64,000 bases of DNA. Source: Kalaharituber pfeilii (taxonomy: Eukaryota; Ascomycota; Pezizomycetes; Pezizales; Pezizaceae). Made by a program: the position numbers and the translations under genes. Within the stretch, counting starts at the first letter, position 1; each line of letters starts with the position of its first letter. The stretch spans positions 1-64,000 of the forward strand of contig WHUZ01000061.1 in assembly GCA_015179045.1 (NCBI GenBank), given 5' to 3'. A model generated the notes under the pieces. That model had not been told where the DNA came from and searched no databases. It saw nothing but the letters and a program-made list of their open reading frames with translations. This document shows, piece by piece, positions 17,998-62,954 of this stretch.

Positions 17998-18059
17998 ATT
18001 TTTTTTTTTTTTTTTTTTATATCATTACTCGCTTGCCGCCCTGGGGGCTATGGCGAGGG
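17998..18059 (-). mobile_element. Hairpin-A micro-retroposon
   Basis: A 62-bp insert: poly(T), then atatcattactcgcttgccg through tatggcgagg. Perfect TSD aatcatgtgttta (17985-17997, 18060-18072). Stem pair actcgc/ggcgag. Confidence 0.92.
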
Positions 18060-18260
18060 AATCATGTGTTTAGTGTCACGGCTTGGCGTGCCATGGCGGC
18101 AGAGGGAAGCTGATTACTAGTACGTGTGGATGTCTTTTTTTTTTGATTTGATTTCATTAATCGCATGCCGCCCTAAGGGCTATGGCGATGTTTAGTTACA
18201 TAACGAAATTCATACGAAATTCACGCCGCCCGCTCCAGAGTTACTCCCCTCCTGCCCACT

Positions 18261-19721
18261 CTAAAATTCCCGCACGTTCCCCCCCTTGTCAATCTGTCTT
18301 ATTCCTTCCGCCCCCCCGCATTTCCTAGCCCATGCCTTGCAGTCTTGCCGTACGTGTTCCCAATTCTCTGGGGCCTCCCCACACCATCGGCATTCCGGTG
18401 ATTCAGCTTTCCCTATGTGGTATCTCCATTCTTTCAGTCCCTTATTTCCTAAGATCCCCGCCAGCGTTGAGAGGTATCGCCTTCGGTCCGCGATTTGCAG
18501 AGGTCGGTAGTTCAGACCCGCCTGCTTTCTCTCCGTGGCTCGCAGTGCCTTATACTCTTGTCTTATACCTGCTTCTGTTACGGTTTCGTCTTCGTATTGT
18601 AGCGCTGTGCCGACTTTAGCCGCCCAGTCTGCCTCCGTGTTCCCTTTCACCCCCTTGTGGCTTTTCACCCATATCACCGCCAGGTCTAGGTCCCCTTTCG
18701 CTATCCGGTCCTCCCACCTCTTCCGTACCAGAGTGGATGCTCCGTCGACCGTGGGGTCCCCTTTCCCTATTCTCCGTAGTCTCGCTATCGCCGTTTGTGA
18801 GTCGGTGATTATTAGCAATTCGCCTTGTTGTTCCATTGCTTCGCTTATTGCTATCAGCTCGCCGTCGTTCACCGTACTCCTCCGACCCAGGAAAAGTGAT
18901 GTGGAACCCATCTGGTGGTATACTCCTGCGCCCGTGCTTTCTTCGATTCTACTCCCGTCCGTGTACACTCCCTGCCACCCTTCGTCGATTTCCTTTTCCA
19001 GGATTTTCTCCCATTCTTCCCTGTCCAGGTCGCTCGGGTGTGTCGGATGTATGTAGATCGGCAGGGGGCCATTATGTCGTAGATCTCCCCTCAGGTACCG
19101 GGTATCCTGGTCTTCGAGTGTCATCTCCCCGGGGAATCTTAGTGCACGTGCCTCCACCCGTTCCCCTTCTCCTTTGACGAACGTGTGTATTGATTCCAAG
19201 TTGACTATCCCTTCTACTATTGGTCTTCTTGTTCCCCAAGGGGCTCCGGAGATGTCTCTTGCCACCGTGTACTGCCACTTTTCGAGGGTCCGTAGCTTTG
19301 ATTCCGCAGGTGCTCCCTTCGCGTAGTTCCTCCATGCCCAGCTCCCGTACGTGGCTATATTCCTTGCTACACTGGTGTATAGTTGTCTTCTCTTGCTCGG
19401 GGGTATCTTGGTGAGCCTGGCGGCTATATTCCAGGCCGCTTTCCCCAGTCTCAACCTTTTCTCGAAGTGTTCGTTGTATTTAAGCTCCCAATCCACCGTC
19501 AGCCCCACCAATCGGTAGCTTTTCCCCTTCACCCCGACTATCAGCGTCTCTGCCTTGTTGGGGTCGATCTCAAAGCCTGCCTCTTTGGCGTTCGAAGTGA
19601 GTTCGTTCCTGTGTTCCGCTATCGCTTTCTTCAGCTGCCGTATCGACGGACTCGAGATCACGCTGTGGAAGTCCCATAGTCTCTCCGTTGGTATGAACCC
19701 GTTCCCTCCGTTCATGGTCAT
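18261..19721 (-). CDS. LINE-A1 ORF2 remnant: RT C-terminus, RNase H, zinc end (486 aa)
   Basis: The frame starts just before the RT stretch DFHSVISS (family counterpart YVDDFHSV in other copies), so the catalytic Asp pair is lost. Residues about 55-65 read LIVGVKG and about 90-180 are thumb/connection (TSVARNIATYGSWAW, LEKWQYTVARDI). About 245-385 is RNase H1-like (GVYTDGSRIEE, NDGELIAISEAME, LLIITDSQTA, VIWVKSHKGVKGNTEADWAA). About 445-470 is the C-terminal CRWCGEAPENWEHVRQDC zinc motif. The start is the ATG that overlaps the upstream stop in an ATGA. The RNase H frame is intact over 1.4 kb, which indicates a fairly young copy. Confidence 0.88.
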   Translation of the reverse strand: MTMNGGNGFIPTERLWDFHSVISSPSIRQLKKAIAEHRNELTSNAKEAGFEIDPNKAETLIVGVKGKSYRLVGLTVDWELKYNEHFEKRLRLGKAAWNIAARLTKIPPSKRRQLYTSVARNIATYGSWAWRNYAKGAPAESKLRTLEKWQYTVARDISGAPWGTRRPIVEGIVNLESIHTFVKGEGERVEARALRFPGEMTLEDQDTRYLRGDLRHNGPLPIYIHPTHPSDLDREEWEKILEKEIDEGWQGVYTDGSRIEESTGAGVYHQMGSTSLFLGRRSTVNDGELIAISEAMEQQGELLIITDSQTAIARLRRIGKGDPTVDGASTLVRKRWEDRIAKGDLDLAVIWVKSHKGVKGNTEADWAAKVGTALQYEDETVTEAGIRQEYKALRATERKQAGLNYRPLQIADRRRYLSTLAGILGNKGLKEWRYHIGKAESPECRWCGEAPENWEHVRQDCKAWARKCGGAEGIRQIDKGGNVREF

Positions 19722-20260
19722 GGTCTGTGTCTTTGGCCTCGAGGCGGGGTCTTGCTGACGGTTGGCGTTCCCGTCTTCTGGGGGTCCGTCTTGTCACATC
19801 CGTTTCCGCTCGGTGTTTTACCGCCTTCTCCCGTTGTGTCCGCGTTCGTCGCTGCCTGTGCGTACGTCTTTCCTGCCCTCTCCTTCTCCGGTTTCCTGCC
19901 CCACTCCATTTCTGAGTTAGTACTATTTCTAGCTGTTCTATTGGTAGCTGCTCCCTTTCGTCCATCTCCTTGGGGCTTGGATCCACCTCGTGATGTCTTA
20001 GGAAGCTGTACTGTAGTTGTAGACTTTATCACAGGTTCTTGCGCCGGGATTGAGTTTGTTGGTATGCTGTTGGACATGTGTATGGTACTCGACATGTCTG
20101 TGTTGTCTCGCATGGCTATGTCTCTGTTAATTTCGATTGCGTGCTTGTTGTCTTTGAGGTTCGTATTGGTGAGGTCATAATCCATACTATCTCCTCCTTC
20201 TTCTGTAGTCTTCCGGGCAGGTACCGAGGAGCTTCTCTTTCCTACCGGCCTTCGTATCAT
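19718..20260 (-). CDS. LINE-A1 ORF1b remnant (180 aa)
   Basis: Hydrophilic, charged protein with TTEEGGDSMDYDLTNTN near residue 20 and a Ser/Thr/Lys-rich tail (KTYAQAATNADTTGEGG, a common prelude to the RNA-binding part of LINE ORF1). A TTEEGGDQMDRTYTN counterpart stands at the end of ORF1a (21157-22818). So either the element carries two partially homologous ORF1 pieces or two copies recombined. It stops four bases into ORF2 (ATGA). Without its RNA-binding C-terminus it is probably non-functional. The call is by position and composition. Confidence 0.6.
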   Translation of the reverse strand: MIRRPVGKRSSSVPARKTTEEGGDSMDYDLTNTNLKDNKHAIEINRDIAMRDNTDMSSTIHMSNSIPTNSIPAQEPVIKSTTTVQLPKTSRGGSKPQGDGRKGAATNRTARNSTNSEMEWGRKPEKERAGKTYAQAATNADTTGEGGKTPSGNGCDKTDPQKTGTPTVSKTPPRGQRHRP

Positions 20261-20299
20261 TCCTGTGAGGGGCGATGGTATTGTCTTGAGCCTGACCGC

Positions 20300-21150
20300 G
20301 TGCCTGCTACAATGTAGGGGGGAGTCTTCCAGTTTCCAAAGGCCAACTGGTATTTACTGTGCTTTTTTTAGGCTCTGTAAGGCTAGCACGGCCTTGTGAC
20401 CATTTCTGGCCCCCCTGCGCGATTTTCATACTGTGGGATTGCCCCACTCGCGCTGTCCACAGGCCCTACAACTGTACGAAGGTTACAGGTTAGGGCAGTC
20501 GTTTCACTTGAACCAATTCAGGGCACCACCCAAGTGAGTACGATACTCTCCCTGCCATAGGCTTGTCACATCGTTTGCACCTTAAGCACCTTCGCTAAGC
20601 CCGCGACTTCGGATGAAGCCACTCCGACCGCTGGCGCCGACGTAAGCATCCGTCCTCTCGGACCGTTGGACTCCCCACAAGTCCAACGCCACGGCTCGCT
20701 CTGTATTTAGCAAAGCTTCCCGTTCCACACAAGGGTCAAGCCTGGGGAGAGTCTATTGGAGCTTATCAGGCTCTAACATCACAACCGTTTACGTGCTGGG
20801 ACCCTCAATGCAGCTACTACGTCTCGCCCCGGGCCCTAACAGCTTCAGATGGCGGTGATGCCGCGGATCTGTCCTAACTGCCAGTCCTACCCAAGACTAA
20901 CCAAAGACCAAGTGATGGCCGTGGGAACTCCACTTCGCTCGCCATGTAGGCCCCTAGGGGTGGCGTGTCCGTCTAACTAGCCTCTTTGCACTTTCTGGAT
21001 GGCGTGAGTGCTTTACCTATAAGGTTTCCCTAGGCCCTGACTCACCCCCATCCCGCCGAGCGGTGGCCAGAATACATCTCACATTGCCTTCCACCAGGGT
21101 CTGGGCCTCGATACCCAGTAGTAGACGGTCCGCTGGTTTTCAGGATGCCG
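20300..21150 (-). other. GC-rich non-coding segment within LINE-A1
   Basis: About 850 bp with no convincing frame on either strand, lying between the two ORF1 pieces. Base composition and lack of RIP match the rest of the LINE. It may be a recombined 5' UTR of another copy. No RNA gene was recognised in it. Confidence 0.4.
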
Positions 21151-21156
21151 AGGGGG

Positions 21157-23249: not shown

Positions 23250-23263
23250 ACGTGTGGATGTCT
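23250..23263. other. TSD of LINE-A1 (right copy)
   Basis: acgtgtggatgtct, identical to 18122-18135. It sets the 5' end of LINE-A1 at 23249. Confidence 0.9.
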
Positions 23264-25576: not shown

Positions 25577-25642
25577 TTACATCGCCATAGCCCTTAGGGC
25601 GGCATGCGATTAATGAAAGGAAAAAAAAGAAAAAAAAAAAAA
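25577..25642 (+). mobile_element. Hairpin-A micro-retroposon in LINE-A2 RT
   Basis: A 66-bp insert: ttacatcgccatagccc through gcgattaatgaaagg, then an A-rich tail. Perfect TSD tctgccacaggt (25565-25576, 25643-25654). Removing it reconnects the RT palm. Confidence 0.93.
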
Positions 25643-26432: not shown

Positions 26433-27503
26433 TTAGCGGAAAGGGTCTCTTGCTAGCCTGAAAATATCCCATGGTGAGGTGATTCTGTCCTCTTCTAAGA
26501 AGCCTTCCCAGTATTCCTTCTTCTTATCTCTTATTATCTCCCTAAGTAGTCTTCTCGCTCTTGTTTTCTCTGTGTGGCTAGCCCCGCTCTTTAGAATGGT
26601 TCTGGTCATTTGTCGTGCCTCTTTTACCTCCTTGTCGAACCATCGTTTCGTGCGTCTGGTGATGTATGCATCTTTTGTAAACTTTTGGCTTAATTCACAT
26701 AGTAGTTCATATCGCCATAGCCCATAGGGCGGCATGCGATTAATGAAATAAAAAAAAGACAAAAAAAAAAAAAAACATAGTAGTTCATACCCATCAATAC
26801 CTTCTGCTAGTTTTCTGTTGCCATATTTATCAACAAATTCTTCCCATTTGTCCCAGTCTGTTACTTTAATGGTTTTGGCCTCTGTCTTCTTTCTGGTATC
26901 CAATGTTCCGATAATCATCACATGGTCTGTACCAGAAATCCATGTTGTCTTTGTTGTTTTCAATTCCCTGGCTCTTGCGAATACCAAGTCCAAGAGTGCC
27001 GTTCCTATCTGTCCATTGATTGTCCGTGTCCATGTGATAGTATTTCTATCTATCTGTTGGAGTAGTCCTCGTGCTTGGAGGGTGTCTTTTAGTAGTATGC
27101 CTCTAGTATCTTGTTTCGGAGACCAGTCGTAGTGATGGCTGTTGCAGTCCCCTATTATCATATCCGTTACTCCTATCTCTTCCAATTCCTTTTCAATATC
27201 GGTGTCTCTGTTCCAGTACACTCCAGTAATCATTCGGTCATCTAATTGTACTGTGATGTGGTTGGCTTTGCCGTCTATTTTCATGCTCATTATTCTGTCC
27301 TTCCTTACGTAGGCTGTTATTGCTCCGCTTCTCATAGGAGAATGTACGTTCGTATAGCTTGGATGAAATGTAGTTCCTCCCCTTGGTGCTCTCCAGCATT
27401 CCCCTATAAAAAGTATATCTATTTTCTTGTCTGCTGCTTCCTGTAGGGCTAGGTCCGTCCCCAGTATTGACCTGCCAACGTTCTGGTATGCGACCTTAAT
27501 CAT
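26433..27503 (-). CDS. LINE-A2 ORF2 N-terminus: APE-type endonuclease
   Basis: Starts at MIKVAYQNVGRSI; the ATG overlaps the ORF1 stop (ATGA), as in reinitiating LINEs. Endonuclease blocks are IDILFIGECWR (catalytic Glu), GDCNSHHYDW (Asp/Asn block, with Cys in place of Phe) and SGTDHVMIIG (terminal Asp-His). It would nick target DNA to prime reverse transcription. A hairpin-A insertion at 26711 adds an FFFFLSFFYF stretch in frame. The frame ends at an in-frame stop at 26433 directly before RT, in phase with the next piece. Confidence 0.9.
   Translation of the reverse strand: MIKVAYQNVGRSILGTDLALQEAADKKIDILFIGECWRAPRGGTTFHPSYTNVHSPMRSGAITAYVRKDRIMSMKIDGKANHITVQLDDRMITGVYWNRDTDIEKELEEIGVTDMIIGDCNSHHYDWSPKQDTRGILLKDTLQARGLLQQIDRNTITWTRTINGQIGTALLDLVFARARELKTTKTTWISGTDHVMIIGTLDTRKKTEAKTIKVTDWDKWEEFVDKYGNRKLAEGIDGYELLCFFFFLSFFYFINRMPPYGLWRYELLCELSQKFTKDAYITRRTKRWFDKEVKEARQMTRTILKSGASHTEKTRARRLLREIIRDKKKEYWEGFLEEDRITSPWDIFRLARDPFR
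26711..26774 (+). mobile_element. Hairpin-A micro-retroposon in LINE-A2 endonuclease
   Basis: A 64-bp insert starting atcgccatagcccatagggc, with an A-rich tail. Perfect 14-bp TSD acatagtagttcat (26697-26710, 26775-26788). Confidence 0.93.
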
Positions 27504-31331: not shown

Positions 31332-31378
31332 TTTTTTTTTTTTATCATTGAGCGCTTGCTGCCCATGGGGCTATGGCG
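31332..31378 (-). mobile_element. Hairpin-A micro-retroposon
   Basis: A 47-bp insert, T11 then atcattgagcgcttgctgcc through tatggcga. Flanks tgcctccccacc and tgccttcccacc, one mismatch. The outer stem pair is not complementary in this copy. Confidence 0.85.
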
Positions 31379-31390
31379 ATGCCTTCCCAC

Positions 31391-31935: not shown

Positions 31936-31987
31936 TTTTTTTTTCATATCATGACTCGCATGCTGCCTCTGTAGGCTATGGCGAGTG
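31936..31987 (-). mobile_element. Hairpin-A micro-retroposon with compensatory inner stem
   Basis: A 52-bp insert with perfect TSD tattactggta (31925-31935, 31988-31998). Inner stem is GCCT/AGGC instead of GCCC/GGGC, a paired change. Outer stem actcgc/ggcgagt is intact. Confidence 0.9.
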
Positions 31988-36851: not shown

Positions 36852-36893
<42 letters not shown>

Positions 36894-36935
36894 TATATAT
36901 CATTTATCGCATGCCGCCCTAAGGGCTATGGCGAT
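36852..36935 (-). mobile_element. Hairpin-A micro-retroposon with long poly(T)
   Basis: About 38 T then atatatatatcatttatcgc through ggcgat. TSD aatccgataga (36841-36851, 36936-36946). Stem ttatcgc/ggcgataa extends into the flank. Confidence 0.9.
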
Positions 36936-38003: not shown

Positions 38004-38058
38004 TTTTTTTTTTTTTTATATTATTGATCGTGTGCCGCCCTATATGCTCTAGTGATAA
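38004..38058 (-). mobile_element. Hairpin-A micro-retroposon, decayed
   Basis: A 55-bp insert with degraded hairpin (gatcgtgtgccgcc to ctctagtgata). Perfect TSD aagtgtagtatg (37992-38003, 38059-38070). Confidence 0.88.
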
Positions 38059-38626: not shown

Positions 38627-39429
38627 ACCCTGCAAAGATGCAGCAGCTGACTACATATGATGAATGCACAATTTGACTGTTTGGAGGAGCGTTACTACCA
38701 TAGCCCTTGCTACTGGCGCCACAGATACCATAAACTTGCTAGGGCAATTGAATCGAAATGCTGTGAGTCCTTCATGTTGAGTGACATCATACCAAATGTT
38801 TCTGCAATTGTCTCCTACCGTTCTGCCCTTTCGTTCTTGTATTTGTTTCGGCGGATGCAAAATTAGCTACGCGCCTAAAAAACCTAGAAGTTGCATGCGC
38901 TATCCCCTAATTCCATAGGATCCATGAATTGCTCTGCAGTGGCAAAACCTATATTTTACACCAGCCAGAGATGTATGCACTCGAGTATTTTACGTTTGGT
39001 GCTCGCCGTCAGACACCAGGCCCTACTCTGTTAAGTTCCGCCCTTGCGAACTTCCTGAAGTACCGGGTACGGCACCCGAAGTGCCATATGGTTAGAGTAA
39101 GTGGGTACGTAGTTGCAGTAAATGCTGATCTGACTGCGATAATGAGACCTGCATGCATGGCCAAATTGGACATTGTAGATCTTCTGCAATATATTCTTCA
39201 CTTGGCTCACCGGTTACAGGAGGATTCCACACAGGTTTTTTTGTTTTTTCTTGGTCACGTGACCCTGCTTGCAGCTGTTCGCCATGGCAGGGCATTCCAC
39301 ACAGGTAGTAGTGCTTGCTCCTGAATTGTACGTATATAGAGCTCGTGTTTCCGGGAATCATTGTGCAATTTGACCGCCAGCGATAATCTAGAACTATTTC
39401 CCACCTCAACAATAACCCCAATAACAATA
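38627..39429. other. Upstream region of the cysteine-rich gene
   Basis: About 800 bp between the hAT element and the host gene. A 69-aa plus-strand frame (38657-38866) has no recognisable feature. A hairpin-B insertion lies at 39237-39293, 137 bp before the chosen start codon. No clear TATA box was identified. Confidence 0.4.
39237..39293 (-). mobile_element. Hairpin-B micro-retroposon upstream of host gene
   Basis: T-rich tail then tcacgtgaccctgcttgcag to catggcaggg. Perfect 13-bp TSD attccacacaggt (39224-39236, 39294-39306). Stem gcaggg/ccctgc. Confidence 0.92.
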
Positions 39430-42455: not shown

Positions 42456-42518
42456 ATGAAGGTTCTTTTTTTTTTTTTTTTTTTTTTTTTCACGTGACCC
42501 CGCATGCAGCTGTTCGCC

Positions 42519-44700
42519 TTTTTTTTTTTTTTTTATACCATTAATCGCTTGCCGCCCTATGGGCTATGGCGATGTCCTAGATACATTAGAAAAGATAAAA
42601 CCATGATGAGTAAGTAAGGTAACCCTCCCCTTGTCGTCCCCTCTACTACATGATAAAAATTCTCCGCGTTCTGGACTCACTCCCCCAACATTTCTATCAT
42701 CGCCCTCAGCGGGTCCCCCTCCCCCTCCTTTCCCCGTGGGGACCTCCTGACATGCTCCTCCCCTCCTGGCCACCGCCGCCTCCCACTAACAGATGTCTCG
42801 TCGTCTCTTCCTCTTCTCCGCACCACCTGCACTCTGGACCATCCCCTTCGCCTACATGCCACCTCCAGGCCCTCAGCCCCTTGCCCGCCAGGAGGCCCGC
42901 CAACCGTCCTATCCCATTGCCGATCCTCTCTAGCGGTTTGTATGTCAATCCCAACCGGTTCCTCTCCTCTGTTCTCTCTCTCCTCCCCTTCTGTCTCAGT
43001 CCGGCCTCTGTCACCATCTCCGACTTGTACTGCAAGGCGGTACCCGTTCTCGCTGCCTTGTCAGCCCTCTCGTTGCCGGAGATCCCCCTATGCGCCTTCA
43101 CCCATAATGCCGCTATGTCCCAGTCTCCTCTCAGGATCCTCTTTTCCCAAGCTTCCCTGAGCCGCCTCGTCGCCCCGTCGTGAGCGAGCTCCCCCTTGAG
43201 ACCGCCGTCATCCTCTGGATCGCGTATCTGAGTCCGTTATGATCAGTAGCTCCCCTTCCACTCTCTCCATCGCCTCACTAATCGCCATCAGTTCCGCATC
43301 ATTCACTGTAGCATCCTCCCCTAAATATATTGATGTCGATCTACCCCCAGAACATCCCCGCTCCCGCCTTCTCCTCCCTCATGCTCCCATCTGTATATAC
43401 TGGAACCCACCCCTCGTCCGTAACCTCATCTATATGTCTCTCCCACTCCCCCCCTCCGCATCCCGGTGCAACGTCTGTATGACTGCCAGTGGCAGTTCCC
43501 TGTTATGTGTCAACGACCCTCTCAGGTACACTTTCTCCTCGTCCCCTTCTTTCAGCCGCTCCCCCTCGAACCTCAATGCTCTCGCCTCCACTCGCGTCGC
43601 CTCCCATCTCACAAACGTCTCCACCGACTCCAAGTTTGCTAATCCTTCCACCACGTCCCGCCTCGTCCCCAAGGGTCATGCGTGATCCCCCTCGCCACCG
43701 TGTATTGCCACTTTTCCAACTCCCTCAACTTCTTCTCTCTTGGAGCCCCATGAGCATACTCGTGCCAAGCCCACGCCCCCAGGTCGCGTTGTTGCGTGCG
43801 ATACTCGTATATAGCTGTCTCCGTTTTGCCGGTGCCATTCGAGTGAGGCGTGCCGCTGTAGCCCATGCTGCCTTCCCTAGGCTCAGCCGATGGGTGTGAT
43901 GCTCATTGAACCTCATCTCCCAGTCCACCTTCAGGACCACCAACCGGTACGTAGGCCCTCTGACCCCCACTATCAACGTCTCCTCTTTGTCCGTATCAAT
44001 CTTGAAGCCCTCCTCTTCCGCGTTTCTCGTCAGCGCCTTCCTATGCCCTCTTATGTTTCTCCTCAACCCGTTCATATTCTTATCCGATAACACACTGTGG
44101 AAGTCGTCCACATATGATCTCGTGAACTCTCTCGCCCCCGTCTTTTCTGCCACCGGTGCTACGCCTACCAAGAAGAGGACTGGGGATAAAGGTGACCCTT
44201 GTGGTGCGCCATCTGTCATCGTAAATTCCGCTCGCTTTCTTCCATCCCACACCATCCCACACCTGGTCTTTTTTTTTTTTTTCTTTCATTAATCGCATGC
44301 CGCCCTATGGGCTATGGCGATATATCCCACACCTGGTCGGTCTCAAAAAGGCGTCCACAAATGCCGCCACGTTCTTATCCACTCTTTCTAGTCCCTTCAC
44401 CACCCTTACCCTCCTCACATGGTTGAATGCCGATCTGATGTCATCTCCTACTATCGCCACCCACTCTCCGTCCCCTAATCTCCTATCTACCTCCTTCAGC
44501 GTCTGCCTCTGCAAATCCTCTGCTCCCCTCCTCGGCCTCCCCCCCAACTGTGTCTCACAAAAGAGAGCATCCTGCCTCTGTATTAAGCCTGCGACCTCTG
44601 ACCCAGCTTCGCCACTGTGTTGAGTAATGTTATTGGTCTCCAGCTCGCAGGTAGCTCTCTTGGTTTCCCTTTCTTCCTTATCATTACCACGTCGAACCCT
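42519..44700 (-). mobile_element. LINE-A4 (5'-truncated, 2.2 kb)
   Basis: Perfect TSD agctgttcgcc (42508-42518, 44701-44711). Poly(T), hairpin aatcgc/ggcgat, then ORF2 pieces in shifted frames. 43101-42706 has the RNase H end (KAHRGISGNERADKAARTGT) and zinc region. 43672-43430 is the connection. 44255-43725 has GAPQGSPLSPVLFLVGVAPV, SYVDDFHSVLS and thumb. 44700-44324 is the RT start (LGGRPRRGAEDLQRQ, IVGDDIRSAFNHVRR). Many single-base frame breaks, little RIP. Confidence 0.9.
44269..44323 (-). mobile_element. Hairpin-A micro-retroposon in LINE-A4 RT
   Basis: A 55-bp insert with perfect 15-bp TSD atcccacacctggtc (44254-44268, 44324-44338). Stem aatcgc/ggcgat. Confidence 0.93.
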
Positions 44701-44908: not shown

Positions 44909-45286
44909 CTTTTTTTTTTTTTTTGTTTTATAATTTAGTGAGCGGCACGAGCTAGCTCGTGCCGAGCTGGAGGGTGAGCTCGAGCCTGGATTGATTATAT
45001 ACATAATATTGACAAACTAAACTAAACTAAGCTAAATTTTCATCTTTCTCACTACTATCAGCTAAATTGAGCATTTCGAAGTTGTTGGTAGGTCAGAATG
45101 AGCTCCAAGTCTCTAATTATTACTATATTAGGTATTTACAGTTTATGAAACCTTGCACTGGCGAAGCATTTTAGCGAGCTGTCAAGAAAAACACAAGCAT
45201 GATCTTGGCTCGTTTGAGCTGGCTCGGCTCGTGCCGCTCACTATTTTATATGATTAATCGCGTGCTGCCCTATGGGCTATGGCGAG
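44909..45286 (-). mobile_element. Hairpin-A micro-retroposon carrying a MITE
   Basis: Perfect 14-bp TSD aatctgacaggtat (44895-44908, 45287-45300). Poly(T) and gttttata are separated from tatgattaatcgcgtgctgc by the MITE. The micro-element proper is about 70 bp. Confidence 0.9.
44936..45243. mobile_element. hAT-type MITE (308 bp) inside a micro-retroposon
   Basis: Ends TAGTGAGCGGCACGAGC and complement. The flanks (ttataatt left, ttttatat right) are similar but not an exact 8-bp TSD. Confidence 0.88.
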
Positions 45287-46936: not shown

Positions 46937-48427
46937 CTAGAACTTGACCCTGGAAAAGAAATTCTCCAAAACGTCATACTCCTCCCCATTCTCCGCCTTT
47001 CTTTTCCAATCCTTTTCCATGTCGCTCCACTTCCCAAAACCTTCTGGGCGGTTCTCCTGACTTCTGCATCGGAAAGCGAGATGCTCCCCCGTTTGCACCT
47101 CCCCACACCTGCACCTCTCCGATTCCGCCACCCCTAGCTTCTTCAACCACCTAGCACACCTTCCTCGCTCCAGTCGCAATGCAGTGAAGTTTGATGTCGC
47201 CACCCTACTCCACTCCATTACCTTTCCTCCTCCAAAGCCCTCCACTTCTCTCTTCTCCTTCCTCCACGCCTCCACCCTCTGGCGCACCCCACTTCCGGTG
47301 GCCACCTCCTTCCCCTGCATCACCGTCCCCTTCTTTGCCCACTCATCCGCCTTCTCATTTCCTGCAATCCCAATGTGAGCCTTGACCCACATCAGTTTCG
47401 CGTCCCCTCCCTTCTTCTTCCTCCTCGCCACGGCCTCCACCACTCTCCTCACATCCTCGGTTTTCCCCTTTCCCTCCCTGCCTGCCTTCTGGATCGCCAT
47501 GACGGCAGCCTCAGAGTCTAAACAGATCAGTACAGGGACCTCCTCCTCCACACTCTCCAGCGCCTTTCTCACTCCCCTCACCTCCCCATCGAACACCGTC
47601 GCCATCCTCCCCACCACCTCCGCCACGGCTGCCGACCTCCCCCACACCCCTGCTCCCACCTTGCTGTCCTCGATCTTGCTGCCGTCGGAGAAAAGGACTG
47701 CCCTTTTTCTTCCGGCTTCCCCGATCGCGGCTTCCCACTCCCCCCTCGTCTCCACTTCTCCTTTCCGCCTCTCCACCACTTCCACCTCCACCTTCTCACA
47801 CCCCCCTCCCCACGAGATCTCCTCCCCCTCCTCCGAGAACCTCGCCCACTGACCTTGCCAGCGGTCCAGCACTGCTTCATACCCCTCATTCTCGACCACC
47901 GCCCACTGCACCCCCCAGTCTCTCCAGTTTCTCGCCTCCTTCTCTCTCTCCTCACTCCCTCCGAAGTCGCCCGTGCAAAGCTCCGCCAGCTCTGACGGCG
48001 CCTCCACCTCCCGGACGATCGCCCTCGCTTGCGCGCCATCCAGGACCGTCTCCACGTCCTCCACTCCACACACCGCACTCACCCCTCCTACCCCCGCTCC
48101 TCTCCCTCCTCCAGCCGCCTTCTTCAACACCTGCAGCTGGACTCTCTCCATCTCCTTCCTCCATTCCTTCTGTCCCCTCCACCCGACCTCGCTTCCCCAC
48201 ATTGCAACCGCCCTCACCATCCCCGTGTAGGCTTGCCTCCAGCTGCGTGGAGACATCCCCCAGTTCCGGTTGCCCAGTCCCGAGAGAGCCCCCGCCAGCC
48301 TCCGCGCTCGGCTCAGCCTGTTTCGCCAATGTGCGCCAAAGGTCAAGTTCTCATCGAAGATGACCCCTAACCACTTTAGCATCTCCCCCTCTTTCTTCCA
48401 CCTCCTTCCCACCCCGAAGGTTATCAT
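46937..48427 (-). CDS. LINE-B ORF2 C-terminal half: RT thumb, RNase H, zinc end (496 aa)
   Basis: Residues 1-120 are RT thumb/connection (EMLKWLGVIFDENLTFGAHW, YTGMVRAVAMWGSEVGW). About 240-375 is RNase H1-like (AVLFSDGSKIEDSKVGAGVW, FDGEVRGVRKALE, PVLICLDSEAAV, LMWVKAHIGIAGNEKADEWA), with the expected D, E, D and a late D. About 425-455 is C-x-C-x7-H-x4-C (CRCGEVQTGEHLAFRC). The true ORF2 continues upstream; the Met is an internal one after a frame break near 48430. Confidence 0.9.
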   Translation of the reverse strand: MITFGVGRRWKKEGEMLKWLGVIFDENLTFGAHWRNRLSRARRLAGALSGLGNRNWGMSPRSWRQAYTGMVRAVAMWGSEVGWRGQKEWRKEMERVQLQVLKKAAGGGRGAGVGGVSAVCGVEDVETVLDGAQARAIVREVEAPSELAELCTGDFGGSEEREKEARNWRDWGVQWAVVENEGYEAVLDRWQGQWARFSEEGEEISWGGGCEKVEVEVVERRKGEVETRGEWEAAIGEAGRKRAVLFSDGSKIEDSKVGAGVWGRSAAVAEVVGRMATVFDGEVRGVRKALESVEEEVPVLICLDSEAAVMAIQKAGREGKGKTEDVRRVVEAVARRKKKGGDAKLMWVKAHIGIAGNEKADEWAKKGTVMQGKEVATGSGVRQRVEAWRKEKREVEGFGGGKVMEWSRVATSNFTALRLERGRCARWLKKLGVAESERCRCGEVQTGEHLAFRCRSQENRPEGFGKWSDMEKDWKRKAENGEEYDVLENFFSRVKF

Positions 48428-48429
48428 CT

Positions 48430-49739
48430 CCCACTTCGACTCCTCCAGCGGATCTGGTCTTCCTCCGCCACCTCCGCCATCGCCACCTTCACTTTCTCCC
48501 TGAGCCGCCCCATATCCCAGTACCCGTGCCAGTCTAGGATCGTTGCTGCCAGGTCGTCAACATACGATGGCACTTCTACCTCCGCCCCATCGCCACCCCC
48601 CTCAGCCTTCTCTCCATCTTCTCAATGGTGGGTGCCATGAAGATGAGGAAGATGACCGGTGACAGTGGTGACCCTTGCGGAACCCCCACGTTCGACCTGC
48701 CCCTCCCTTTCTCCTCGCCGTCCCACCACACTCCGAACTCCCTGCCTCCCATAAACTCCTCCAGCCACCTCCGCTTCTTTCTCACCCCCTCGCTCCCCCT
48801 CTCCTCAATCCTTCTCAGGACCACCTCCTTCCTCACGATGTTAAAGCCTCCTTTAACATCCGCCGTCACCCACGCTGCTCTCCCCCCCCTGTGCAGGCAC
48901 CTCTGCACCTTTGTTACCGCCCTCGCCATCGCCTGGATCGCATTCCTCCCCTTGCGTGCTCCCAGCTGGAGCCTGTGGAAGAGTCGGTCTTCTTTCTGTA
49001 GCCTGCTGGCCATGACTTTCTCCACGATCTTCCCGATACAGTTAATCAGGTTGATTGGCCTCCACGCTTTCGCCGTCTTGATGTCCTTGCCCGGCTTCGG
49101 TATCATAACGACCCTCATCTCTCTCCACTCCGCTGGGGTCCTGTTCCGGATCCAGTTTTCGGCGATCTCCCTCACTAACTCATCCCCGATGGGAGTCTTC
49201 AGGGCAGCTTTGATCAATCGGTATCCGATTCCGTCGGGTCCCGGTGCCAAATTGTTTTTGGTGCCCTGCAACGCAGCCCTCACTTCTCCTTCTACTCTCT
49301 CCCTCTCCCTCTCATCCCCCTCCTCCTCCGCTTCCCCTCCCCCACCTCCTCCCCCGCCTCTGCCTCCCCCTCTTCCCTCCACGCAAAATTCCTCTCCACC
49401 AGCGCCCTCACCTTCTCTCCGTCCCCTCCAACTCCCTCCCTCCTCATCTTTCAACCTTCCCATCCTCTCCTTTCCTCCGAAAGGGTCCTTCGCCACCCTC
49501 ACCACCCTCCATGGGTCGCTGTACCCTTCCTCTTCTACGAACTCCCTCCAGCACTTCTTCTTCTCCTCCCGGATCTTCCACTTCATCCTTTGCACCGCCG
49601 CCTTCCAACCCCTCACCCTCTCCCCCTCCGTCAACCTCGCTCTGGCCCCTATCCCCCCCCGTGCCAGCCTGTTGACTTCTTTCCTCATCTCCTCTATCTC
49701 TTCCGTCCACCACCTCTTGCTCCTCCTCCCCACTCTCAC
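48430..49739 (-). CDS. LINE-B ORF2 reverse transcriptase
   Basis: The open frame 49739-48576 covers the linker (RWWTEEIEEMRKEVNRL), RT fingers (NNLAPGPDGIGYRLIKAALK, RVVMIPKPGKDIKTAKAWRP, INLINCIGKIVEKVM), palm A (AAWVTADVKGGFNIV) and B (GVPQGSPLSPVIFLIF). The palm C box SYVDDLAATILDW follows in another frame (about 48570-48520). Target-primed reverse transcription would use this domain. Frame changes occur near 48576 and 48430. Low-complexity acidic insertion at about residues 130-150. Confidence 0.88.
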
Positions 49740-49750
49740 CTCTTTCTCTA

Positions 49751-49808
49751 TGCCCTGCCATGGCGAACAGCTACAAGCGGGTCATGTGATATAAAAAAAA
49801 AAAAAAAA
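49751..49808 (+). mobile_element. Hairpin-B micro-retroposon inside LINE-B ORF2
   Basis: A 58-bp insert, tgccctgccatggcgaacag through catgtgatat and poly(A). Perfect 13-bp TSD acctctttctcta (49738-49750, 49809-49821). It interrupts the link between endonuclease and RT of its own family. Confidence 0.95.
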
Positions 49809-49821
49809 ACCTCTTTCTCTA

Positions 49822-50604
49822 GGACCTCTTCCACCTTTTCAGCCTCTCGTATGCGGTCCCTCCCCCCACCCTCTCCAACCACTCCTTCCTTTCCTCCTCC
49901 CCCACTCCCCCCCCCCTTCTACCTCCTCTTCCATCCTCTCCCAGTCAACCCTCACTACCCTGTTCTCCCCTTCTTCCACCTCCCCCTCTCCCTGAATTCT
50001 ACCACCAGCCCGAGTGGTCCGACCCCACATCCACCAGGCCTAGCCGGTCCACCGTCACTCCCCTTACCCACACCAAGTCGATCCTCGACTCTCTCAACCT
50101 CCCCTCCACTTCCCTCCTCCACGTTGCTTCCCTTTCTCCCACCAAGGTGAAGCCAGCCCCCTCCATCCTCTCCTCAGAATCCTGCCCTCCCACTCTCCTC
50201 CACCCCTTCCAGAATCCACGCTGAGCTGTGCGCGTTCCAGTCCCCCACTAGGACGCACCTGCCCTGCACCTCTAGCACTCCTTCCAGCCACCTCTCAAAC
50301 TCCTCGTTCCTCCATCTCCCGTCCACATATACCCCCCTACTGCCACCCCTCCCTCTCTCCCCATACTATATTCCCGTCGCCCCTCCTCCCCCTCTCCCCT
50401 CTCTCCGCTCCCATCCTACCACCTTCGTCTCCTTCCCGACCCCCCCGATCCTCTTCAGACTCGGGTGCCCCCCACTTTCCATCCCCCCACTTCTTCCCTT
50501 GTCCACACTTCTCCCTCAAAGCCCAAGTCCCACCCTTCCTTGAACATGGTCTCCCCCACACATGCCCCCCACCGACGATCCCCCAACATTCTGGTACCCT
50601 ACCT
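49822..50604 (-). pseudogene. LINE-B ORF2 endonuclease region, frame-broken
   Basis: The minus strand from about 50604 starts MVKVGYQNVGGSS, matching the MIKVAYQNVGRSI start of LINE-A2 endonuclease. Further pieces are scattered over three frames (for example VVGDWNAHSSAWI-like near 50250, GSDHSGWW near 50010). Several single-base indels lie in C- or G-runs. The domain would nick the target. Confidence 0.7.
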
Positions 50605-51036
50605 TCACCATACTGGTCTGGGTACCCCGCTGCTCTCTGCTTCCCACCCCTCATCAAGCAGGCCTCCGTCCCCAAAAATATCTCCCAACCTCACCCCCGG
50701 TGCATGCATAGACCCCGCCATGTCCCTTCTGTCATCCACATCCATCCTCTCTCCTCCCCTCCTCTCCTTCATCCACTCCGCCAGCTCCAAAGCTCTCGCC
50801 TTCGCATCCCAGTCTTCTGACAGGACTCCCGAAAACTTCACCTCCCCCTTCCCCCCCGCCTCCGCTTGCTTCCTGTTCCCCTTCCCCCCCTCCACTTTCA
50901 CTGCCTTACTCCCCTCCTCCTGTTTCTTCTTCATCGGAGTCTCCTCCACCCTCTCCCTCTTCTGGCTTTGATTTGGAGTGACCGGTTTCGGCCTCTCCAT
51001 GCACATCCTTGCAATGTGCCCCCACCCTCCGCAACA
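50605..51036 (-). CDS. LINE-B ORF1 C-terminal end (displaced by insertion)
   Basis: From 51036 down, GHIARMCMERPKPVTPN completes the second CCHC knuckle that starts upstream of the family-A insertion (CYCCGG, then W). The rest is Lys/Glu-rich and ends WEAESSGVPRPVW. Removing 51037-51293 and one TSD copy restores continuity with the ORF1 frame at 51309-52643. Confidence 0.82.
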   Translation of the reverse strand, partial: CCGGWGHIARMCMERPKPVTPNQSQKRERVEETPMKKKQEEGSKAVKVEGGKGNRKQAEAGGKGEVKFSGVLSEDWDAKARALELAEWMKERRGGERMDVDDRRDMAGSMHAPGVRLGDIFGDGGLLDEGWEAESSGVPRPVW

Positions 51037-55574: not shown

Positions 55575-55579
55575 ACTAA

Positions 55580-56111
55580 TGTCACGGAGGTTGACATAGT
55601 CGATAGAGAGTCTATGATCTCCTAATAAGGTAGTCATTACTAGAATGGTCGCTCCGTTAGTAGTGTAACACCATTAGGAAATAATAGTAAGCACTAAGCA
55701 GGAAGCCTAGGGTTGATCAGGACAGGACGCTGTCAGTCACCTACGGCTTGGCAGAGTAAGCCGCCACAGGGCCCTAATTAGAAATGCTACTCCGTTATCT
55801 CTAGAAGAGATAACTAGGCTAGGTTTAGTGCTAGGAGGAGCTGATAAGTCTGAAACCTGATAGGTAACGGACCGGACCGTGTATCCAGTAGATTGGAACA
55901 AGGCCTCAGCCTCCGTAGAAAGCCACTGTCAGAAAGGGCACTTAGGATGGGATCCAGTAAGAGTATTTAACTTGAGCTGGATGGCCTGCCCCGACAGAAG
56001 AACCATTATCAGTGAAAGCTGTAACACTCCCGCTTAAAGTTATTTCTGTATAAGAATATATTCTAAGTTCTTTATTCACATAATCGGCCGTGACGAAGCA
56101 CCCCCGTTATA
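55580..56111 (+). repeat. Gypsy-2 5' LTR
   Basis: TGTCACGGAGG to CCCCCGTTATA. A TATA-like gtatttaac (about 55965) lies some 65 bp before the 11-nt motif cttaaagttat (56033-56043), the putative transcript start and self-primer. Confidence 0.92.
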
Positions 56112-56124
56112 CTATAACTTTAAG
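56112..56124 (+). promoter_or_regulatory. Putative self-primer binding site of Gypsy-2
   Basis: ataactttaag (56114-56124), two bases past the LTR, is exactly complementary to cttaaagttat in the LTR. Tf1/sushi-type chromoviruses are known to prime with the 5' end of their own RNA. Confidence 0.6.
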
Positions 56125-56147
56125 TTATTACCTCTACAGCTATCACT

Positions 56148-57910: not shown

Positions 57911-57913
57911 ATA

Positions 57914-58350
57914 AGACTCGGAGGAAAAAATGGTCGGGTATTTTCTGCATGATATTTAATTATATCACTATATACTTGTTGCACTACTAGAAGGTTGCAA
58001 GCGAGTTTATGGAGACTATTCCGTTGGATAAAAGAATCTCTGCAAATATTGATCAAAGTGTCCTCATACTTTACATATGGGATTATTAGTAGTATAAGAA
58101 CTACTATTAGAAGTTTCAGCCTATTCGACTAGTGAGTGGACAAGAGATCCAACAAAATCCAAGATTAGCTGAGGATGGCTTCATTAGCCGAAACATGCAG
58201 GCATGTTCTAATCATGATTATATTCTCACGAATTTATCTTGCTTAGACCTACTATTTCCCTCAACCCTACTGCTCCTATTACACCAACTCACTATCGTCG
58301 TATTTGGACCTACCGTGTAGGTAGTACTAGTCTGAGAAGCTAGTATCGTA
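57914..58350 (+). other. Gypsy-2 gag-pol spacer without coding
   Basis: About 440 bp rich in stops between gag and protease-pol. No motif recognised. Unusual length for a Gypsy gag-pol junction. Confidence 0.5.
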
Positions 58351-58357
58351 GTCCAAA

Positions 58358-60064
58358 ATGAGGAGACAACGCACCAAAATCAACACTGCTGAACCAGTGC
58401 ACTCAGCACGATTCATCATCCAGTCAATCGTCAAAGTCACACAACAGGAAATTCCTTGCCGATTGTTATTAGATTGTGGAGCCACAGGACCAATCTTCAA
58501 TGAAGAATTTGTCCGAAGTTCTAACATCCTCGTTAAGAAGCGTGCAAAACCAATCGTGGTTGAAAACGCAAGCAAGCAACCGATCACAGGGGCAGGAGTG
58601 TACTATACTAAGCCAGTAGAGCTAGTAATAGGAAATCACTCCGAGGCTCTAGTGTGTGAAGTTGGGCAAATCGAGGATGGAGTAGATGGATACCTCCCAA
58701 TCTCCTGGCTCAATAAGCATAACCCAGATATAGACTGGGAGAAAGGAACCATGAAATGGCGGAGTAGCTATTGCCAGCAGCATTGCCTCCCCAAAGAGTT
58801 CCAGGCAAGCATCGTCGATAATATTGTCCTAAAGAAGGAAATATTAGATGACCCTGATGCATGGGTAGCTAGTTTAGTCTGGCATACCGAGGATGGAGAA
58901 GATGTTAAAGGACTTCTCCCTGCAGTTTACCACAAGTGGGCTCACCTCTGTAGTCGAGAGCAGAGTAATCAATTACCAGCTCACTCCCGGTTTGACCACA
59001 CTATCAAATTAGTCCCTGGAGCAGAGGCCCCATGGGGACCACTATACCCATTTTCTGAAAATGAACTCCGAGCCTTGAAAGAATGGCTCGACAAGCAAGA
59101 AGCAGCGGGGAAAATTGTAAAGTCCCAATCATCAGCAGGAGCACCCATCCTATTAGTCCGAAAATCCGACGGTACCTATCGAGTCTGTACAGATTACCGC
59201 GCACTCAATAAAGTAACTATCAAGAACCGATACCCCCTACCTCTTATGACGGAACTTCGAGAACGTCTAAACAAGGCTAAAATATTTACGAAGTTAGATC
59301 TGAAAAATGGTTATAACCTAGTACGCATGGCCAAAGAAGACGAAGAGAAAACTGCGTTCCGCACCCGGTTCGGATTATACCATTGGCGAGTTATGCCCTT
59401 CGGACTTTGCAACGCCCCTGCCACCTTCCAAGCTATGATGGATAATATATTCCATGACCTGCTTGACAACGGAGTTGTAATATATTTGGATGATATCCTA
59501 ATATATTCAGAAAATGATGAGGAGCATGAACGTCTAGTAAAAGAGGTACTAGCAAGGCTCGATAAGGCTGGTTTGGGAGTGAACCTAAGAAAGAGTTGCT
59601 TCCATCAGCAAGTAGTAGAATTCTTAGGTTATAAGATTTCTCCGGAAGGAATCCAAATGACCGAGAAAAAGGTGGAGGAAGTTAAGAATTGGGCAACCCC
59701 TCGCCGAGTCAAAGATGTACAAGAATTCCTAGGTTTTGCTAATTTTTATAGAAGGTTTATCGAAGGGTTCTCCAAAATCGCACACCCTTTAACAGAATTA
59801 ACCAAGAAAAACCTACCTTGGAAATGGACTCGAGCAAGACAACAAGCCTTTGACGAAATCAAGAAAAGGTTTACAACTGCACCAATTCTAGTACACTTCC
59901 AATCGGAGAAGGAGACTATTATCGAAACCGATGCTAGTGACTATGCCGTAGGAGCAGTCTTATCTCAGCTTCAACCCAACGGCAAACCACACCCATGTGC
60001 TTTTATGTCACGAAAATTCTCACCAGCGGAAATTAATTACGATATCACGATAAAGAAATGGTAG
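58358..60064 (+). CDS. Gypsy-2 protease and reverse transcriptase (568 aa)
   Basis: Residues about 20-120 are retropepsin-like with [12 protein letters not shown] (the D-C-G-A variant of the active site). About 230-440 is the RT ([82 protein letters not shown] with the YLDD box, [15 protein letters not shown]). About 440-568 is the thumb and start of RNase H ([34 protein letters not shown]). The frame is lost at 60040-60064 within RNase H, one base short of the continuing frame [14 protein letters not shown]. Start is the first Met after the spacer. Confidence 0.93.
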
Positions 60065-61670
60065 CCATCATCAAAGCCTTCAAGGAGTGGGAACCACTAC
60101 TCAAGTCCTGTCAACAACAGATACTCGTTTGGACAGACCACAAAAACCTTGAGTACTTTAGTACTACGAAAACTTTGACTCGAAGACAAGCAAGATGGGC
60201 CGAGTTCCTGGAGAATTTGATTTCATGGTAAGGTATAGACCTGGAGAGAAAAATGGGAAGCCAGATGCATTGAGTAGGCGTTGGGATCACCGCCCTGAGG
60301 AAGGGAGTGAAGACCTACAACCAGTACAGTTCTTGTTTAAGCCCGGACAATTAAGGCTAGCTGCAACAAAGGTAGTGAAGCTAAGGGACACCTTCCGAGA
60401 TGACTTACGCACTGCTGGAGAGAGTTCCGCAGATTGGGTGAAAACCCGAGAAGCAGTCAAGGAAGGGAGTCAACTAGTGGATAAGAACTTTACGGTTGAA
60501 GACAACCTCCTCCTCTGGAAACACCGGTGGTTCATCCCAGACAATAAGGAAATTAAAAACAGAATCCTTCGAGATAACCATGATAGTAAAATCGCTGGAC
60601 ATTTCGGCATTCATAAGACTTTGGACCGAATTAAGGCTAACTATCACTGGGTTAACATCGAGCAAGACGTACAGGATTATGTACGCTCTTGTGATACATG
60701 CCAAAGGGACAAACCAAGCAGACACCGAAAATACGGACTTCTAGAACCATTAGAAGTACCTTACCGTCCCTGGTCATCAATCTCGATGGATGGGATCACC
60801 GAACTTCCTGAGTCTAATGGCTGCACCATCATTTGGGTAATCGTTGACCGATTTACCAAAATGGCCCATTTCATCCCTCTCCCCACTAACACTACCGCTA
60901 AAGACCTTGCCCAACCCTTTCTGAGATTCTATTGGAAGTATCATGGACTTCCGGAAGACATCATCTCGAACCGAGACTCAAAGGTAACCTCACATTTCTG
61001 GCAAGCACTAATGGATCTATTAGGCATTACGACAAAGCTATCGACTGTCTTCCACCCTGAAACCGATGGGCAAACAGAGCGAACAAACCAAACCCTTGAA
61101 CAATATCTACGACACTATTGTTCTTGGAAGCAGGACGATTGGGAAGACCTTTTGCCTATGGCAGAGTTTGCGTATAACTCCTCCTCCTCTGAAACAACAG
61201 GCATGTCCCCTTTCGAAGCCAACTTTGGGTTTAAACCTCGCCAGTCCTGGGAACCATTAAGGAAGGTCGAATTCCAGAACCCTACCAGCGAACTTCTAGA
61301 GAAAGTCTGGGAAGGAACCTGGAAACGACTTAGGGAGAACATTCTAAAAGCTAGAATCAAGATGACTCGATGGTCTAATACTAAAAGACTTGAACAACCA
61401 AGCCTCAAAGTAGGAGATCTCGTCATGGTTAGCAAGCAGAACATGCAATCCCACCGACCTTCTAAGAAACTCGACCACCGAAAAGCCGGACCTTTCAAAA
61501 TTACCAAAGCAATAGGAACTCGAGCATATAAACTAGTGTTACCCTCAACTATGAAAGTACACCCGGTTTTCCATGTGAGCTTATTGGAACCCTATCGGCA
61601 AAGTCTAGATTCAACTCGACATATCCCTCCACCCCCCCAGAAGAAATCGAGGATGAAGTCAATTGGGTAG
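60065..61670 (+). CDS. Gypsy-2 RNase H end and integrase (491-aa frame from 60195)
   Basis: RNase H continues to TDHKNLEYF at about 60140. A further one-base break near 60215 leads to the 60195-61670 frame. That frame has [18 protein letters not shown], the HHCC domain ([26 protein letters not shown]), the DDE core ([41 protein letters not shown]) and the GPY/F region ([26 protein letters not shown]). In the second Asp block an Asn replaces the usual Asp before R (ISNRDS, where relatives have SDRG), though another Asp follows. It ends just after a C7 run. Confidence 0.9.
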
Positions 61671-61892
61671 TTCGGGATATCGTTGAAAGCAGAAAAAATA
61701 AGAGGAAGCGTGGGCACCCGGTACTTGTAGAGTATTTAGTATTGTGGGAAGGATACCCAGATGAGGAAGCAACATGGGAAGGTTATAAGAACTTGGCTGG
61801 AACAAGTGAGGAAATTTTGAAGGAGTTTCATAACAGACATCCGCAGGCAGATAGGGATTTCCGGGTTAAGATCTTGAGGACAAGAAACTAGG
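61640..61892 (+). pseudogene. Gypsy-2 chromodomain, out of frame
   Basis: One base out of the integrase frame from the C7 run at about 61631-61637: [20 protein letters not shown], then LVEYLVLWEGYPDEEATWEG, ending RVKILRTRN and TAG. Full chromodomain fold with aromatic residues W and Y in the usual places. The C-run would need one more C to fuse it to integrase. Confidence 0.87.
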
Positions 61893-61902
61893 AAGGGAGT
61901 AA

Positions 61903-62434
61903 TGTCACGGAGGTTGACATAGTCGATAGAGAGTCTATGATCTCCTAATGAGGTAGTCATTACTAGAACGGTCGCTCCGTTAGTAGTGTAACACCATTAG
62001 GAAATAATAGTAAGCACTAAGCAGGAAGCCTAGGGTTGATCAGGGCAGGACGCTGTCAGTTACCTACGGCTTGGCAGAGTAAGCCGCCACAGGGCCCTAA
62101 TTAGAAATGCTACTCCGTTATCTCTAGAAGAGATAACTAGGCTAGGTTTAGTGCTAGGAGGAGCTGATAAGTCTGAAACCTGATAGGTAACGGACCGGAC
62201 CGTGTATCCAGTAGATTGGAACAAGGCCTCAGCCTCCGTAGAAAGCCACTGTCAGAAAGGGCACTTAGGATGGGATCCAGTAAGAGTATTTAACTTGAGC
62301 TGGATGGCCTGCCCCGACAGAAGAACCATTATCAGTGAAAGCTGTAACACTCCCGCTTAAAGTTATTTCTGTATAAGAATATATTCTAAGTTCTTTATTC
62401 ACATAATCGGCCGTGACGAAGCACCCCCGTTATA
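61903..62434 (+). repeat. Gypsy-2 3' LTR
   Basis: Near-identical to the 5' LTR. The polypurine tract agaaactaggaagggagtaa lies just upstream. Confidence 0.92.
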
Positions 62435-62777
62435 ACTAATGTAGTTAGTAAAGACTTACTATATATAGATGAGACTTATAATATTTATGTATTATTTTTT
62501 ATACTAAGTAGTCAAATATCTACTAGTAGGGACTAATTAATTATCTCTATTTCTTTAGCCCTAAATAAATAAAATAATAATATACTTTACTAGTAATTGT
62601 TTATTACATACTTATCTATTTGTATTTTCATAAATATATTGGAATATAAGCTAACAACTACATATACTCTATACTATATGTAAGAACTATAGGGCAGAAA
62701 AGTATCATGTTGGAAGGTATATATAACAGCAAGTAAAAGTAGTAGTATATAAGTGACAGTGAGTATAAATACTAGCA

Positions 62778-62829
62778 ACCTCGCTATAGCTACACGTGAG
62801 TAATAATATTAAAAAAAAAAAAAAAAAAG
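62778..62829 (+). mobile_element. Hairpin-A micro-retroposon with loop deletion
   Basis: cctcgctatagctacacgtg then agtaataatatt and poly(A). The centre (inner stem) is missing while the outer stem arms ctcgc/gtgag remain. TSD aatactagca (62768-62777, 62830-62839). Confidence 0.82.
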
Positions 62830-62924
62830 AATACTAGCAGGTAGTATAAGTGATAATGTAATGAAGGTGGTAAATATAGAGACTAAATGTAGAGAGTTAC
62901 TATCCACCAAGCCAAAAAGATACT

Positions 62925-62954
62925 TTTTTTTTTTTATATCATTACTCACTTGCT
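62925..62954 (-). mobile_element. Shortest hairpin-A-type insertion (30 bp)
   Basis: T11 followed by atatcattactcacttgct only. Perfect 14-bp TSD gccaaaaagatact (62911-62924, 62955-62968). The related sequence at 54519-54535 is uninterrupted. Confidence 0.88.

Follow-up and report, generated by a model that had tools for sequence, protein, structure and literature searches.

The 64,000-nucleotide (nt) stretch of Kalaharituber pfeilii DNA analysed here, hereafter the window, is contig C319:1-64000 of an assembly of 78 Mb and 360 contigs. It carries a set of very short inserts, here called micro-retroposons, which consist of the 3' hairpin of a long interspersed nuclear element (LINE), or a part of it, followed by poly(A), and which are flanked by target-site duplications (TSDs). 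Two LINE families, A and B, are represented. The offset given below is the number of nt between the 5' end of the insert and the hairpin core (for B, the motif CCCTGCC).

17998..18059, minus strand: A micro-retroposon; body CCCTCGCC...ATGATAT of 41 nt plus poly(A); TSD AATCATGTGTTTA, score 13, offset 4
25577..25642, plus strand: A micro-retroposon inside a stretch with LINE-like reading frames; TSD TCTGCCACAGGT, offset 6
26711..26775, plus strand: A micro-retroposon; TSD ACATAGTAGTTCATA, offset 1
31332..31381, minus strand: A micro-retroposon with diverged hairpin; imperfect TSD CCTCCCCACC/CCTTCCCACC by eye, score 10
31936..31987, minus strand: A micro-retroposon; body 43 nt; TSD TATTACTGGTA, score 11
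36852..36934, minus strand: A micro-retroposon with long poly(A); TSD AATCCGATAGA, score 11, offset 2
38004..38058, minus strand: A micro-retroposon with diverged hairpin; TSD AAGTGTAGTATG, score 12
44269..44323, minus strand: A micro-retroposon; TSD ATCCCACACCTGGTC, score 15, offset 4
62778..62829, plus strand: A micro-retroposon with hairpin shortened, from ACCTCGC; TSD AATACTAGCA, score 10
62926..62954, minus strand: A-type insert starting inside the hairpin, body 19 nt; TSD GCCAAAAAGATACTT, score 15
49751..49809, plus strand: B micro-retroposon TGCCCTGCCATGG...ATAT plus poly(A); TSD ACCTCTTTCTCTA, score 12, offset 2, one extra T
39236..39293, minus strand: B micro-retroposon; TSD CCTGTGTGGAAT, score 11.5, offset 1
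63598..63640, minus strand: B-type insert starting inside the hairpin, body 24 nt; TSD ACTCCAAGCCTGC, score 11.5
17774..17873, plus strand: B two-hairpin element of about 80 nt plus poly(A), beginning at the second hairpin's base; TSD AGGAGTATTTCGGC, offset 39
46940..50731, minus strand: relative of the family-B LINE in several aligned blocks, spanning the B micro insert at 49751
44909..44975, minus strand: end of another repeat family, outside the set; no TSD found, score 7

The initial annotation had described at least eleven family-A inserts of hairpin and poly(A), with TSDs at nearly all sites and, in most, a 5' end near the hairpin base, and much of this description stands. Ten of the eleven listed sites are such inserts, with TSDs scoring 10-15; a null of 400 random pairs for the listed sites gave 7 at 95%, 9 at 99% and a maximum of 19. 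At 31332 the computed TSD match (14/16 bases) runs into the hairpin, and by eye 9/10 bases match and the insert starts at the hairpin base. Eight of the ten start 0-6 nt above the core, 31332 is a ninth at or beside the hairpin base (by eye), and the insert annotated at 62925 begins inside the hairpin. The eleventh, at 44909, was rejected as family A: it seems to be the terminus of an unrelated repeat, because its best TSD match, 7, is at null level and its end sequence was found without poly(A) at 9 other places in the analysed DNA. A GC-rich repeat ending ...GAGCTAGCTCGTGCCGCTCACTA was seen in the 44909 region and at loci L017, L045, L067, L074, L089, L096 and L121, the other copies having no poly(A).

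Micro-insertions are real and occur beyond the window as well. Among 221 A-runs scanned in the analysed DNA, 80 had TSDs at a score of at least 10, and 36 of these had a body of 35-44 nt, a share that is not a genome average, as this DNA was mostly picked around hairpins; with permuted flanks the same scan gave 4 TSDs in total and 0 in that body range. Tandems of hairpin-poly(A)-hairpin-poly(A), either A then B or B then B, were observed at L109, at L111 and in the window at about 42490-42540 (minus strand), and could have arisen by insertion into poly(A) tails or by template jumping. At L040 (about 6900-6950) lies a poly(A) insert with a different tail, TGGTGGCACGCAAGAACTGATAT, and the TSD GGTCCAGGCCA (score 10.0); it may belong to a third LINE family that also has short copies.

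A search of the whole assembly with the hairpin, which the initial annotation had proposed, returned 6,757 matches to the family-A core CGCCATAGCCCNNNGGGCGGCATGCGA at up to 2 mismatches, and the reversed-pattern control returned 0. The core ends many diverged LINE tails, in which similarity is often confined to the last 40-120 bases (51 copies compared). It folds into a 5-bp stem, an internal loop and a 4-bp stem, and the outer stem covaries, the pair at -2/+1 being C-G in 69/123 copies and A-T in 46/123. It is thus a conserved, covarying 3' stem-loop like the recognition hairpin of stringent-type LINEs, with a putative role in mobility. Frames resembling RNase H lie upstream of some A hairpins and match family B at 31-40% (L090, L089, L081, L015, L009); on these matches we base a probable coding relation of A to B, the A LINE being known in part. 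Among the matches listed, zero-mismatch A hairpins are sparse at about 0.5-2.5 Mb of contig C1 compared with its first 0.5 Mb, which suggests repeat-rich and repeat-poor compartments.

To map the 5' ends, 123 distinct A copies were compiled. They comprised 92 of 100 zero-mismatch hairpins among the matches listed (30 loci and further regions on contigs C1-C10; the 8 left-out places were the last of that list), to which were added the window and copies that happened to lie in other loci. A TSD was called confident at a score of at least 8 inside 60 nt and at least 10.5 farther out, with a permuted-flank null that never exceeded 6.5 within 60 nt and reached 10.3 (99%) and 12.0 (maximum) beyond; as the far threshold is near the 99% level, about one far call may be chance. 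Confident TSDs were found for 57/123 copies, with 28 ends at 0-10 nt above the core, 1 at 11-49 and 28 at 50-1000, and for the other 66 no such TSD was called out to 1,000 nt or to the limit of the locus. Under a crude model with ends uniform over 1,000 nt, at least 28 in the first 11 nt would have P ~1.5e-39. The claimed pile-up beyond random truncation was therefore borne out in these samples, which showed no smooth spread of 5' ends; the micro share among A copies is a property of the samples and not a genome-wide measure. A ends are near-exact: by eye, CT-type copies mostly start with ACCT/CCCT (-4) and AT-type copies with AT (-2).

The initial annotation had tied the effect to family A; family B shows the pile-up at the hairpin start too, and more sharply. 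A family-B LINE at L039 encodes a 1,248-aa open reading frame (ORF) with APE-type endonuclease, reverse transcriptase (RT) and RNase H domains, followed by the B hairpin, [G/A]CCCTGCC-WTGGC-N5-GCTRCAWGCGGGGT, so that the body of B inserts matches the 3' end of a LINE in the same genome. A protein database search with LINE B gave 3 distant matches, and tblastn with its ORF aligned three blocks at 81-91% and two others at 45% and 70% to 46940..50731 of the window. The B set comprised 80 copies from fetched regions, earlier loci and the window, with an upstream reach of 300-400 nt in the fetched loci; the TSD cut-off was a score of at least 8, and the null had a maximum of 7 within 60 nt and, farther out, 7.0 at 99% and a maximum of 14.5. 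By class there were 38 micro copies with TSD, 8 longer copies with TSD, 25 LINE-like copies without a confident TSD and 9 that were neither. Poly(A) together with a TSD, as expected of a product of target-primed reverse transcription (TPRT), thus marks micro copies in 38/80 B and 28/123 A.

In this sample the B ends are exact to the base. Among the 46 copies with TSD, 38 begin 0-7 nt before CCCTGCC, at offsets 0 (6 copies), 1 (21), 2 (6), 3 (3), 5 (1) and 7 (1), and the remaining offsets are 36, 38, 39, 39, 154, 197, 238 and 263. The base ahead of CCC is G or A in 38/38 micro copies, as in the LINEs (6 possibly TSD-derived), and an unambiguous copy of the LINE base beyond it is present in 0/38. 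Over all non-LINE-like B copies, base -1 is G/A in 47/47 and base -2 is G in 6/47, against 33/33 in LINE-like copies; the classes were partly sorted by CAGGG, but copies extended only to -2 or -3 would have remained visible. The 38 micro junctions divide into 19 direct joins, 8 with microhomology (ambiguous) and 11 with extra bases, mostly T: ten of these 11 (without L024) contain T 12, C 3 and A 1, and without L024 and L152 (TSD perhaps mutated) the counts are T 9, C 2 and A 1. TSDs are of similar length in micro and long copies (median 12 in 61 and 13 in 28, respectively), and A is the commonest base just before the TSD in both (0.64 and 0.57).

A second preferred end lies one hairpin farther upstream. 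Four of the 46 B copies with TSD end at offset 36-39. Among 20 B copies hand-picked from the listed CAGGGG matches, that is, copies extending past the first hairpin, 7 were called at 36-40, where the next hairpin (AAGCC..GGCTT) has its base, and L170 can be added by eye as an eighth. Ends elsewhere (93-486) were seen in L172, L173, L175, L176 and L180, and 7/20 have no confident TSD within 600 nt.

The pile-up could in principle be a detection artefact laid over ordinary random 5' truncation. TSDs of short inserts are easier to find, the choice of copies with an intact hairpin (young and full, from few contigs) leaves those that begin within it under-counted, and an isolated far call may have arisen by chance, as the far permuted nulls reach 12.0 (A) and 14.5 (B). 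Against this, A ends at 11-49 nt number only 1/57, where TSDs are equally easy to find, and the permuted nulls within 60 nt never passed 6.5 (A) or 7 (B). Counts that need no TSD agree: genome-wide there are 4,554 B hairpins at up to 2 mismatches and 2,199 with CAGGGR upstream at up to 3, so that roughly 52% lack the six adjoining LINE bases, an approximate value as the thresholds differ. We therefore consider an artefact very improbable.

The compact 3' hairpin that precedes poly(A) in LINE A and B is most likely the RNA feature recognised by the elements' own RT. There is, in our judgement, an even chance that the micro-inserts derive from short 3'-terminal RNAs, with 5' ends determined by the hairpins, that were mobilised in trans by the LINE machinery. 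Such RNAs would exist beside the long ones, with 5' ends either at the foot of the last hairpin, giving about 40 nt, or at that of the next one upstream, giving about 80 nt, and with poly(A) kept in both cases. A 5'-to-3' exonuclease or an endonuclease might trim the LINE RNA to the folded, possibly RT-bound, hairpin; the LINE endonuclease and RT would prime on the poly(A) of the short RNA and copy to its true 5' end, and the cDNA end would then be attached at the target site. On this view the majority of micro-insertions would represent a tiny RNA copied over its full length and would not be LINEs truncated at random; the predicted RNA starts are [G/A]CCCTGCC for B, ACCTCGCC or ATCGCC for A and AAGCC for the second hairpin. 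We favour run-off at the genuine 5' ends of short RNAs because the ends are exact to one base, the extra bases are T-rich and ends fall at successive hairpin bases. RT run-off adds an A at the cDNA 3' end, which is a T on the insert strand.

The initial annotation had left the choice between a processed RNA moved in trans and an RT stop. The base-exact B ends, the T-rich extras and the second end favour the RNA, and a strict template-boundary stop remains its rival. A base-precise stop on ordinary long LINE RNA is indeed a serious rival, although we judge it less than evenly probable: the RT, anchored at the 3' hairpin, would halt at a fixed boundary once the hairpin is copied, either at a telomerase-like template boundary or because RNA and cDNA hairpins form again and displace it; the resulting short cDNA would be joined with a TSD. 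In both families the ends are sharp and lie next to the probable recognition hairpin, which fits such a stop, and one study reports that zebrafish LINE ORF2 binds the 3' stem-loop, with the loop read specifically (PMC4176376). The 50% of direct joins is similar to truncated L1, for which PMC4245944 gives 54%, against 76% for full-length L1 and 82% for Nimb-2; it also describes extra bases or microhomology at ZfL2-1 junctions, full-length and truncated alike. The stop has more difficulty with 38 B copies exact to one base, with T-rich extra bases that resemble run-off at a real RNA end, and with the second exact end, which would require a second boundary.

Micro copies are unevenly distributed over the B subfamilies. 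GAACA-loop B has 2,389 hairpins (up to 1 mismatch) and 720 with CAGGGR upstream (up to 2), and TT-loop B has 479 (up to 1) versus 750 with LINE upstream (up to 2), the long copies exceeding the total through the looser threshold. Among the matches listed, perfect LINE upstream sequence (zero mismatch, by eye) was present in 26/99 GAACA (C1-C9) and 27/34 TT hairpins (C1-C14; Fisher P ~1e-7), and in the TSD sample 30/49 GAACA copies were micro versus 0/10 TT copies (P 0.0003). Base -1 of GAACA micro copies is G in 36 and A in 2 (36/38 G), and that of sampled LINE-like GAACA copies is A in 7 and G in 4 (4/11 G); this contrast indicates that one subfamily supplies most micro copies. In CAAGT/CACGT copies it is A in 7/7 micro and 11/11 LINE-like copies, and long LINE copies with the G-type tail are also present. 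LINE-B subfamilies with TTNGY loops have few or no micro copies though their tails fold alike. Hairpin stability was rejected as the cause of the contrast, as no simple relation was seen: TT-loop tails (-17.1, -17.2 kcal/mol) are about as stable as those of the micro-prone CAAGT/CACGT (-15.9 each) and GAACA types (A-type -18.0, G-type -21.4). The subfamily effect could reflect each LINE's own RT, and this possible basis keeps the RT stop alive.

The same data bear on whether the micro-elements are a self-propagating, SINE-like (short interspersed nuclear element) lineage with its own promoter or master copies, which we regard as improbable. That most GAACA-loop B copies lack LINE upstream sequence, that one subfamily supplies most micro copies and that the first base is a purine in 47/47 would suit such a lineage; it is opposed by the way micro copies mirror other LINE subfamilies at base -1 (CAAGT/CACGT), by the long copies with G-type tails and by the absence of a clear A/B-box excess. 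Boxes A and B of tRNA type occurred within 400 nt upstream in 4/203 copies, versus 1-4 in shuffled sequence and 1 on the reverse strand, and no search was made for 7SL/5S heads. With a body of about 40 nt and no such excess, an ordinary tRNA-type SINE was rejected, as the initial annotation had held. To our knowledge, there is no 40-bp element with an internal promoter. A known self-cleaving ribozyme at the presumed cleavage point was likewise rejected: Rfam gave no ribozyme in the window at the gathering cut-off, and in 8 loci at E<=5 it gave 5 matches to miRNA or snoRNA families and none to a ribozyme. The 7-bp B stem with its G.U or A-U end pair bears a likeness to HDV ribozymes and RNase P substrates, nothing more.

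Several points weigh against the short-RNA reading. The micro share differs by B subfamily (TT-loop 0/10), a contrast not expected from simple trimming. The junction classes do not discriminate between the readings, the 19/38 direct joins being close to truncated L1. Two window inserts (62926 and 63598) start inside the hairpin, and A is less exact than B, about 10/13 CT-type copies fitting -4 and about 10/13 AT-type copies fitting -2 by eye with extra or shared bases counted. The first TSD base is T at 0.33 in micro copies versus 0.68 in long copies. Moreover, the short RNA, its origin and its copying in trans are what we infer from the insert ends. We tentatively propose, at a little under an even chance, that retroposition in this fungus uses discrete hairpin-poly(A) RNAs of 40 and 80 nt, derived from LINE transcripts, as complete templates. 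The resulting elements would be the smallest retroposon class, with thousands of copies whose 5' ends would record RNA processing at single-base resolution.

Elsewhere in the window, a Ty3/Gypsy-like long terminal repeat (LTR) element occupies 56000-62434, with an RT match at 59156-59638; some 110 bases that begin with GAACCATTATCAGTGAAAGC at 56000 are found again at 62323. Locus L027 contains a cdc16/APC6-like host protein whose nearest match is Peziza echinospora (73%, whole query), together with other Pezizomycetes, which places the genome with the cup fungi.

These inserts address the question of whether LINEs lose their 5' parts by RT fall-off or because the RNA is already shortened. With an end point that is base-fixed in the sampled B copies, present in two families and subfamily-dependent despite similar folds, the question becomes directly testable. 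If the short RNA exists, the minimal mobile unit of a LINE would consist of some 40 nt and a poly(A) tail, with nothing of the element left but the hairpin for RT recognition, and the insertion junctions would be a fossil record of RNA processing. In the literature searched, which did not extend to subscription papers and preprints, no listed title or abstract start mentioned hairpin-only retroposons or base-exact LINE 5' ends at hairpins.

SINEs with a LINE 3' tail, such as UnaSINE1 with UnaL2, are likewise short, non-coding and presumably mobilised via the LINE 3' hairpin, whereas the elements described here have no 5' head and no pol III A/B box that we found, and at about 40 nt are little more than the recognition hairpin. 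In telomerase a hairpin can fix the exact end of reverse transcription; it is a different RT, and serves as a model for the RT stop only. LINEs with 3' stem-loops, Tad1 in fungi included, are discussed in PMC5135761, and truncated copies of stringent-type LINEs (UnaL2, ZfL2, SART1; Tad1, PMC5135761) share with ours the 3' hairpin, TPRT-type insertion, TSDs and 5' loss; the sampled ends here pile up on exact hairpin-base positions and are not spread. The short-RNA reading has a parallel in an R2 study which proposes that the template RNA is truncated at its 5' end before cDNA synthesis and that folds bar 5'-3' exonucleases (PMC11331408). Both cases share a 5'-shortened RNA as template and folds that resist trimming, but the R2 case is experimental and uses transgenes, whereas the present one concerns endogenous poly(A) LINEs with fixed end points.

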